DNA from: an uncultured Gammaproteobacteria bacterium
GTDB taxonomy: Bacteria > Pseudomonadota > Gammaproteobacteria > Magnimaribacterales > TMED112
Direction: 5' to 3'
Assembly: GCA_913044115.1 (NCBI GenBank)
Contig: CAJWNO010000007.1
Location: forward strand, 1-37,949
DNA: 37,949 bases
Shown: positions 30,913 to 34,963 of the stretch, one piece after another
How the letters are laid out: every line of letters begins with the position of its first letter
How positions within the stretch are numbered: position 1 is the stretch's first letter
The notes under the pieces: model-generated
Databases searched by the model: none
What the model saw: the letters and a program-made list of their open reading frames with translations, nothing else
Told to the model about the DNA's origin: nothing
Made by a program: the position numbers and the translations under genes

Positions 30913-31437
30913 ATGAGCCTCAAGATTGAAAATAATCTTATCGTTGGAGCTGAGGTTGAATTGTCACCAAACAGTTCAGAAAGGTATGACGATATAGAAT
31001 TGGTAGTAATTCACTGCATAAGCCTACCTGAGGGCGAATATAATAATAATTACCCAAAAGATTTATTTTTGAATAGGCTTGATTTCAGTATTCATCCAAG
31101 TTTTGAAACCTTAGAAAATCTTAAGGTTTCATCTCATCTTCTAATCAATAGGGATGGCACATTGCTTCAATTTGTGCCATTCGATAGATGTGCATGGCAC
31201 GCTGGACAATCAATATTTGAAGGCAGAGAAGATTGCAATAAGTTTTCCATAGGGATAGAACTTGAGGGGACAGTTAAAGAAAGCTACACCGATAAGCAAT
31301 ACCTTGTATTGAGTGACATAATTAATTTATTAAAGAGTAAATACCCAATCAAAAAAATTGTTGCACATAGCGAAATTGCTGCAGGTCGCAAAGATGATCC
31401 AGGCCCGTATTTCAATTGGGAAAAAATAAATGATTGA
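30913..31437 (+). CDS. ampD: 1,6-anhydro-N-acetylmuramyl-L-alanine amidase
   Basis: Cytoplasmic zinc amidase that cleaves the peptide from anhydro-muropeptides during cell-wall recycling. Amidase_2 landmarks: VVIHCISLPEGEY with the first zinc histidine and the AmpD-type SLPPG-like loop, SSHLLINRDGTLLQFVPFDRCAWHAGQS, SIGIELEG, and VAHSEIAAGRKDDPGPYFNW with the other zinc ligands (His and Asp) and the conserved Lys. Length 174 (E. coli 183). It overlaps by eight bases with an AmpG-type permease, forming an importer and amidase pair. Confidence 0.95.
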   Translation: MSLKIENNLIVGAEVELSPNSSERYDDIELVVIHCISLPEGEYNNNYPKDLFLNRLDFSIHPSFETLENLKVSSHLLINRDGTLLQFVPFDRCAWHAGQSIFEGREDCNKFSIGIELEGTVKESYTDKQYLVLSDIINLLKSKYPIKKIVAHSEIAAGRKDDPGPYFNWEKIND

Positions 31438-32986
31438 AAAACTGAGAAAAACACAATTCAACTTCATATTTTTTGGCATATCAGCAGCTATGCCCAGCTT
31501 TGCACTAGGCATTCCTTTTGGTTTATGGCTTCTTTCAGCAGGAGTAACTAAACAAACCTTGGGTTTGGTAACTGTTTCCTCAATCATAGTGGCATTAAAT
31601 TTTTTATGGTCCCCATTTATAAATAAAATTAAATTACCGATTATTTATAATCTTTTAGGCTTGAGAAGATCTTGGATATTTATTTCACAGATATTATTAG
31701 GCATCTTATTGTTATGTCTATCCGTGCTTAACCCACAAAATGACCTTTTATACGTTGTTGTCGTTGCTTGTTTAATTTATTTTTTCTCATCTGTACAAGA
31801 CATTGCTCTAGATGCTTATAGAGTTGAGTACGATAAGTTTTTTAAAGCAGAGAATTTGGCTACGGTTTATCAAATTGGCTATAAGGTTGGTGCTTTTTTA
31901 ATTGGTGCACAGGTCTATGGAATTATTGGCGCAGATAATTGGCAAGCAGTTTATATTTACTTGGCAATTTTAATGTTTTGTCTTCCTTTGGTTACTGTTT
32001 TGAGTATGAGAGTAGACGAAGGTGAAACGAAAGAATCAACTTCGAAACATTTCTTTTCAGCATTCCAAGATCTTCTGCGAAAAGATAATATTTTTATCCT
32101 ACTATTACTGGTTGGTCTTTATAAAATTTCAGATATAGTGCTTGGACCCATGGCAGCAGCCTTATACACCGATGTTGGTTTGAATAATCCTGCTTATCTA
32201 GAGCAAAAAAGCTATTACAACTTCCTTGCTACATTTGTTGGATCTGGAATAGCTCTCTGGTCAATTAAAAGTTTAAAAATACATTTAACTATGTTTATTG
32301 GTGCTCTTCTTGTAGTTAGCACAAATATGCTTTTTTCGTATTTATTTATTTTTCCAACTTTCTTTAATTTTATTTTTATTAATTTTTTGGATACGATTGC
32401 TCAAGCATTCACGGCTGTTTGTTTTATAACTTTTCTAGTTGATCAAGTTAATAGACGATATACAGCAATCCAGTATGCATTTTTAGCCTCTTTAGTCATA
32501 ATTCCAGGCACGCTTATGAAAGGAACGTCTGGTTTCATAACCGAGGGTGTAGGATTCTATAATTTCTTCCTAGTCATGGGGTTGATGGGGATTCCTTCAG
32601 TATGTCTTTCATATCTATTAACAAAGGGATTTACATTTAATCTTCAAAATAACCTTAGAATCCTTGCTATAGCTTTTGCTATGACTATTTTCATCTTTTC
32701 GTTAATTGAAATTGATCCTTCTAGAGAGTCTATGATTAACGATAAAATACTTCATTTCATTGCATATTTTTGTCTTGCGACTCTTGTCCTTGAAGCTAGT
32801 AAAATAACTAAGGTTTCTTACTTGCTAATAATTATTTTTTTAATGGGAGTATTTATTGAAATAATACAAGGAAAATTAGGTTTGAGGTATTTTGAGTATA
32901 TGGATATAATAGCCAATTCTTTAGGTATTTTAGGAGGTTTTCTAATTTACATAACGAGACATAAAACCTTGAAAAAAATATCTTGA
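31430..32986 (+). CDS. ampG: AmpG-type muropeptide permease with C-terminal VanZ-like domain
   Basis: 518-residue membrane protein. Residues 1 to about 405 are a major-facilitator fold resembling AmpG: GISAAMPSFALGIPFGLWLLSAGVTKQTLGL, FLWSPFINKI, GLRRSWIFISQ and SSVQDIALDAYRVE. AmpG imports GlcNAc-anhydroMurNAc peptides. The last hundred residues differ from AmpG and carry the VanZ pattern: DKILHFIAYF, GVFIEIIQGKLGLRYFEYMDIIANSLGILGG. The gene therefore looks like an AmpG-VanZ fusion. There is no frameshift or internal stop at the junction. Overlap with ampD supports a role in muropeptide recycling; the VanZ role is unknown. Confidence 0.85.
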   Translation: MIEKLRKTQFNFIFFGISAAMPSFALGIPFGLWLLSAGVTKQTLGLVTVSSIIVALNFLWSPFINKIKLPIIYNLLGLRRSWIFISQILLGILLLCLSVLNPQNDLLYVVVVACLIYFFSSVQDIALDAYRVEYDKFFKAENLATVYQIGYKVGAFLIGAQVYGIIGADNWQAVYIYLAILMFCLPLVTVLSMRVDEGETKESTSKHFFSAFQDLLRKDNIFILLLLVGLYKISDIVLGPMAAALYTDVGLNNPAYLEQKSYYNFLATFVGSGIALWSIKSLKIHLTMFIGALLVVSTNMLFSYLFIFPTFFNFIFINFLDTIAQAFTAVCFITFLVDQVNRRYTAIQYAFLASLVIIPGTLMKGTSGFITEGVGFYNFFLVMGLMGIPSVCLSYLLTKGFTFNLQNNLRILAIAFAMTIFIFSLIEIDPSRESMINDKILHFIAYFCLATLVLEASKITKVSYLLIIIFLMGVFIEIIQGKLGLRYFEYMDIIANSLGILGGFLIYITRHKTLKKIS

Positions 32987-32996: not shown

Positions 32997-33010
32997 AATT
33001 GTTAGTTATT

Positions 33011-33015
33011 GGAGG
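33011..33015 (+). promoter_or_regulatory. Strong Shine-Dalgarno sequence deciding the groES start
   Basis: GGAGG lies 11 bases before ATG 33027. This selects the ATG over the upstream in-frame TTG at 33009 used in the ORF track, which precedes the SD. It is one of the few strong ribosome binding sites in the window, consistent with high expression of groESL. Confidence 0.75.
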
Positions 33016-33026
33016 ATAACCTAAAA

Positions 33027-34963
<1,937 letters not shown>

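Follow-up and report, generated by a model that had tools for sequence, protein, structure and literature searches.

The protein described here draws on two known families, the AmpG permeases and the VanZ proteins. Reporter fusions have placed the termini of AmpG in the cytoplasm (PMC3022710), and in the permease of Pseudomonas aeruginosa the substitution G29A abolished function (PMC5154545). How the VanZ of the vanA cluster works has yet to be established (PMC7146870). A 2025 analysis puts VanZ in the lipocone superfamily, whose members form a cone of four helices with a His in helix 2 (H2), a Glu in H3 and an Asp in H4; the TelC toxin domain and phosphatidylserine synthases serve as the analogues from which lipocones are predicted to cleave or swap the phosphate-linked head groups of outer-leaflet lipids, the lipid in the case of VanZ being lipid II (PMC12419801). 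The same authors separate VanZ-2, marked by RKxxH and DxxxD, from VanZ-1, marked by an Asn in H2 and by DxDDxxxN (PMC12419801).

In the literature searched, the enzyme activity of VanZ stands as this published prediction. An earlier note on the DNA considered here spoke of VanZ-like proteins as being of unknown role, which since 2025 is no longer purely so, now that the family has a lipocone assignment and a predicted active site (PMC12419801). The words AmpG, MFS, permease, muropeptide and UppP do not occur in the main text of that analysis, and our literature search on AmpG together with VanZ, or on VanZ together with peptidoglycan recycling, returned no paper on such a link; the papers that name both VanZ and peptidoglycan recycling concern other subjects, to judge by title and abstract.

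The window, that is, the whole stretch of 37,949 nucleotides that was analysed, comes from a SAR86 genome and carries a single gene in which the two families are joined (Table 1). This AmpG-VanZ fusion is a real, lineage-fixed joining of two known families whose genes are long-standing neighbours. The relatives of the protein that bear names are SAR86 cluster bacteria, at 42-92% identity; a scan of genome contigs found only three SAR86 relatives. The overlap of the fusion gene with the upstream ampD, noted before, amounts to 8 bases.

Table 1. Features of the ampD-ampG-vanZ region (positions are those of the window).
Feature	Positions	Strand	Basis and remarks
ampG-vanZ fusion gene	31430..32986	+	518 aa in an uninterrupted frame; 16 transmembrane helices predicted (12 + 4)
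AmpG-type major facilitator part, residues 1-400	31430..32629	+	TIGR00901 4e-77; AmpG structures as best PDB fold matches
VanZ (lipocone) domain, residues 401-518	32630..32983	+	PF04892 5e-9 on the domain alone; AlphaFold2 model
Codons of invariant D438, H442, E477, R486, D492	32741..32905	+	Each 40/40 in alignment A1; predicted active-site cluster, predicted periplasmic side
ampD, cytosolic anhydro-muropeptide amidase	30913..31437	+	NF008758 2e-65 (above cut-off), Amidase_2 2e-28
groES-groEL, a pair conserved on the 3' side of ampG-vanZ in SAR86	33009..34963	+	Synteny

Both halves proposed in the earlier note are recovered by profile searches. Over residues 9-395 the whole protein matches the NCBIfam AmpG model TIGR00901 (E=4e-77), with Pfam MFS_1 at 2.6e-9; its PDB sequence matches are AmpG entries only (9c3f, 8zgz, 9j9z, 8zbb), and the five best PDB fold matches of the full AlphaFold2 model are all AmpG structures (8zgz at 1.2e-12; 8zke with a TM-score of 0.86 to the target). 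Pfam VanZ (PF04892) matches residues 437-508 of the whole protein at 3e-7 with 31.5 bits, above the gathering cut-off of 30.1, and residues 401-518 taken alone raise this match to 37.3 bits and add NCBIfam vanZ_1 at 3e-6. The motifs by which the domain had been recognized read as quoted, beginning at residues 438 (DKILHF), 475 (FIEIIQ) and 492 (DIIANSLG).

The joint protein, for which the same note had proposed a structure prediction, was modelled with the combined alignment A3 (pLDDT 83.7, pTM 0.82). Twelve MFS helices are followed by a link of about six residues and by VanZ helices at 405-425, 438-456, 462-482 and 490-513; modelled alone, the VanZ domain again forms four helices (pLDDT 89.4). 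No solved structure in the PDB is related to this part by sequence or by fold, the fold search giving nothing below an E of 3. We also considered whether the domain might be the C-terminal helices of a standard AmpG, miscalled as VanZ, and rejected this reading, since the C-terminus of E. coli AmpG gives no VanZ match with Pfam relaxed to E<=10 and none with a SAR86 VanZ profile at full sensitivity.

The model and a 40-sequence alignment of SAR86 VanZ domains, fused and separate, together display the features that define lipocones: a four-helix core in which H2 holds a His, H3 a Glu and H4 an Asp. Gly499 is invariant in all 40 sequences, as are the five polar residues of Table 1, three of which (H442, E477 and D492) coincide with the published lipocone positions (PMC12419801). 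As to subfamily, H2 carries a VanZ-2-like DKxxH, H3 has ExxQ in 31 of the 40, and H4 reads DxxxN in 27 and DxxxD in 13.

A survey of the spread of the fusion, likewise proposed in the earlier note, finds it in all 17 genomes of the window's genus that have an intact locus; three further genomes of the genus, in which contig ends cut the locus, stand outside this count. An assembly or frameshift artefact as the source of the fusion is ruled out by its being common to 17 genomes. In one of the draft genomes the fusion gene occurs twice in nearly the same form, on contigs G019:C25 and G019:C27; these are probably two strain variants within one draft.

In 30 of 33 genomes from three sister SAR86 families, the gene directly 3' of ampG, in the same orientation, is a stand-alone vanZ of 108-142 aa, which often overlaps ampG (11/12 in family f3, 12/12 in f4 and 7/9 in f2; the count takes in G035). 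The order ileS-lspA-ispH-ampD-ampG-vanZ-groES-groEL is widely common in SAR86, and the ampG-vanZ adjacency is kept where ampD sits about 0.5-3 kb off (f4, f2) and, in f2, despite some 600 bases before groES. Where VanZ was counted per genome (the window genome, G020, G022 and G023), there is a single one, at ampG. Three SAR86 genomes have an ampG with no adjoining vanZ: in G054 and G036 (loci L060 and L061) the gap of about 600 bases before groES was checked and no VanZ remnant was found, and in G043 (L042) the region beyond ampG is rearranged.

The closest unfused SAR86 AmpGs are about 410-430 aa long and lack a C-terminal extension, with vanZ as the next gene. VanZ was thus added by joining, and does not stand in place of the extra AmpG helices as had been suggested. 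The fusion most likely arose by the joining of neighbouring ampG and vanZ genes, because in G022 the vanZ ATG follows directly, and in frame, on the ampG stop codon TAA, so that this one stop codon is all that separates the pair from a fusion. This argument is carried by synteny and not by the VanZ tree, which we dropped as proof of descent from the neighbouring gene since its deep branches are poorly resolved. Fused and separate SAR86 VanZ form no supported clade in it; a tree that places all SAR86 VanZ in a single clade is not rejected (p=0.22), and one that unites the fused domains with the bulk of family f3 does no worse than the unconstrained tree (p=0.52). The fused domains themselves form one clade (80/88), so that one fusion event suffices, and most simply the fusion arose once in this SAR86 lineage.

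Among 184 gammaproteobacterial genomes, with AmpG in 145 and VanZ in at least 101, no AmpG-VanZ neighbours are present outside SAR86 among the matches listed, where the nearest pair lies about 10 kb apart (G106); across 150 Pseudomonadota genomes, the matches listed include no other AmpG-VanZ pair within about 38 kb. The neighbours of stand-alone vanZ elsewhere were surveyed at 40 loci of other gammaproteobacteria. Directly upstream on the same strand lies uppP, encoding undecaprenyl-diphosphate phosphatase, at nine loci (L115, L122, L124, L127, L132, L136, L137, L141 and L144), which come from several families and often have cca next; at two more, uppP is one gene further away. Other neighbours are a wecA-type transferase at three loci (one family), the glutamate racemase gene murI at one and, on the opposite strand, mpl at one. 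The uppP- and wecA-linked VanZ sit on another branch of the tree, with support of 99/93, so that these neighbourhoods speak for the wall or the carrier lipid as the theme of the family and not for an identical reaction. A different, large VanZ architecture was also seen, namely open frames of about 1110-1190 aa with two VanZ matches each (G166:C1, G137:C53, G110:C54 and G150:C1).

The fusion to a transporter of a family with known cytoplasmic termini allows the orientation of the VanZ domain to be predicted. Given that the C-terminus of AmpG is cytoplasmic and that MFS helices 1-12 return the chain to the cytosol, VanZ helix 1 would start inside, and all five invariant polar residues would then lie at that end of the domain which faces the periplasm. 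The loop charges fit the positive-inside rule with this arrangement: K+R against D+E is 2.0 versus 0.1 in the H2-H3 loop and 3.2 versus 0.5 in the C-terminal tail, and D+E exceed K+R in the H1-H2 and H3-H4 loops. On this topology the predicted active-site residues of the fused VanZ are predicted to be on the periplasmic face, an orientation derived from the fusion that would independently fit the published outer-leaflet placement of VanZ.

The permease half is itself divergent, the change in the transporter coinciding with the fusion. The window protein scores 260 bits against TIGR00901, below the curated cut-off of 350; the values are 263-298 bits for those fused homologues that were tested, as opposed to 390-420 for unfused SAR86 AmpGs. 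At the position of P. aeruginosa Gly29, located through alignment A3 (window residue 20, 31487-31489), all 15 fused AmpGs have Ala or Ser and all 18 unfused SAR86 AmpGs have Gly; at that of Asp74, placed in the same way (window residue 65, 31622-31624), Asn is found in 15/15 fused proteins and Asp is kept in the unfused ones. Q131, D132 and D136 (P. aeruginosa numbering) are retained in the fused proteins, and the A129 position is Ser, as it is in half of the unfused SAR86 AmpGs. The transport substrate of the fused AmpG may have changed, because the AmpG score falls below the cut-off and the Gly29 position holds Ala or Ser.

As to the pathway, SAR86 has AmpD, AnmK and an Mpl-type ligase, with Mpl clear in families f2-f4 and weaker, in a separate frame of 424-433 aa, in most f1 genomes searched. 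A GH3 enzyme of NagZ size (about 340 aa) was not found in the five fused-clade f1 genomes searched (G013, G020, G007, G006 and G011), in which the GH3 frames are 646-833 aa only, though AmpD, AmpG and AnmK are present; the sole NagZ-sized one seen, of 358 aa, is in G022.

We tentatively propose that the fusion is a two-part wall-recycling protein of the inner membrane, an AmpG-type importer joined to a periplasm-facing VanZ that acts on a lipid-linked precursor. The N-terminal twelve helices would import anhydro-muropeptides, to be trimmed in the cytosol by the product of the overlapping ampD. The C-terminal four would hold the invariant Asp-His-Glu-Arg-Asp cluster toward the periplasm at the outer leaflet, where its most likely target would be a wall precursor carried on undecaprenyl, of the lipid II type, and in it the phosphate-linked head group. 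One polypeptide would then unite wall-fragment salvage with the turnover of lipid-linked precursors. The known AmpG substrate, GlcNAc-anhMurNAc peptides, differs from the product expected of lipid II cleavage, and the step that would couple the two is therefore a guess. A tighter, bifunctional arrangement, in which an outer-leaflet VanZ enzyme frees or processes the head groups of lipid-linked peptidoglycan for uptake by the altered AmpG to which it is joined, strikes us as improbable. If true, it would amount to a direct route from lipid II to the cytosol, which is not described in the literature searched.

The two proteins might instead have unrelated jobs, their overlapping, co-oriented genes having lost a stop codon in the course of operon streamlining, with no functional coupling. 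Such a fusion would spare a few bases and hold expression equal, and the SAR86 genomes examined are small, at about 0.7-1.8 Mb. The overlapping or abutting genes of the sister families, one stop codon apart in G022, suit this account as well, and with the whole block from ileS to groES conserved, adjacency alone is weak evidence of a common function. The adjacency nevertheless survives both the movement of ampD in f2 and f4 and the groES gap in f2, the VanZ neighbours elsewhere are again wall genes, and unrelated products rarely stay functional in a single chain. We regard streamlining as somewhat unlikely. Less likely again is a non-catalytic VanZ that stabilises AmpG, or that senses lipid-linked precursor and gates muropeptide import. 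VanZ domains do occur in sensor positions and fused to signalling domains (PMC12419801), and the AmpGs of E. coli and P. aeruginosa also have extra C-terminal helices, but invariance at every predicted catalytic position exceeds the need of a purely structural role. There is, finally, a small chance that the fused permease no longer serves as an AmpG and takes in some other wall- or lipid-derived molecule prepared by VanZ. The low TIGR00901 scores, the clade-specific changes at Gly29 and Asp74 and the missing NagZ-sized GH3 in the fused-clade genomes searched all lean that way, against which stand the unchanged ampD synteny, the continued presence of AnmK, the retained Q131, D132 and D136, and top fold matches that are all AmpG.

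The main value of the fusion, found in one branch of these abundant ocean bacteria, would lie in the lead it gives on VanZ. Attachment to a transporter whose C-terminus is known to be cytoplasmic yields a prediction of how the VanZ active site is oriented, and its partner points to a testable pathway, muropeptide recycling, for which the sister SAR86 lineages offer a ready-made unfused AmpG/VanZ pair for comparison.

Compared with the AmpG family (TIGR00901; 8zgz, 8zke, 9c3f), the protein shares the 12-helix MFS core, the QDIxxDA segment and the place beside ampD, and differs in its score below the cut-off, in Ala or Ser for Gly29, and in its C-terminus, which is VanZ here and consists of other helices in E. 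coli AmpG. With the VanZ family (PF04892; lipocone VanZ-1 and VanZ-2) it has in common the four-helix core, the H2 His, the H3 Glu within ExxQ, and the H4 Asp with the Gly at its end; its position behind an MFS transporter is a pairing absent from the main text of the lipocone analysis (PMC12419801). The VanZ of the vanA cluster, known from teicoplanin resistance, belongs to the same domain family and is likewise linked to peptidoglycan precursors, but it is a stand-alone Gram-positive protein that lowers lipoglycopeptide binding (PMC7146870), and nothing in our analysis suggests a role in drug resistance for the fused VanZ of SAR86. The stand-alone vanZ genes beside uppP or wecA in other gammaproteobacteria, finally, encode similarly small proteins, for the most part of about 120-180 aa, and are likewise surrounded by wall or carrier-lipid genes, yet they lack the ampG linkage and belong to a branch of their own.
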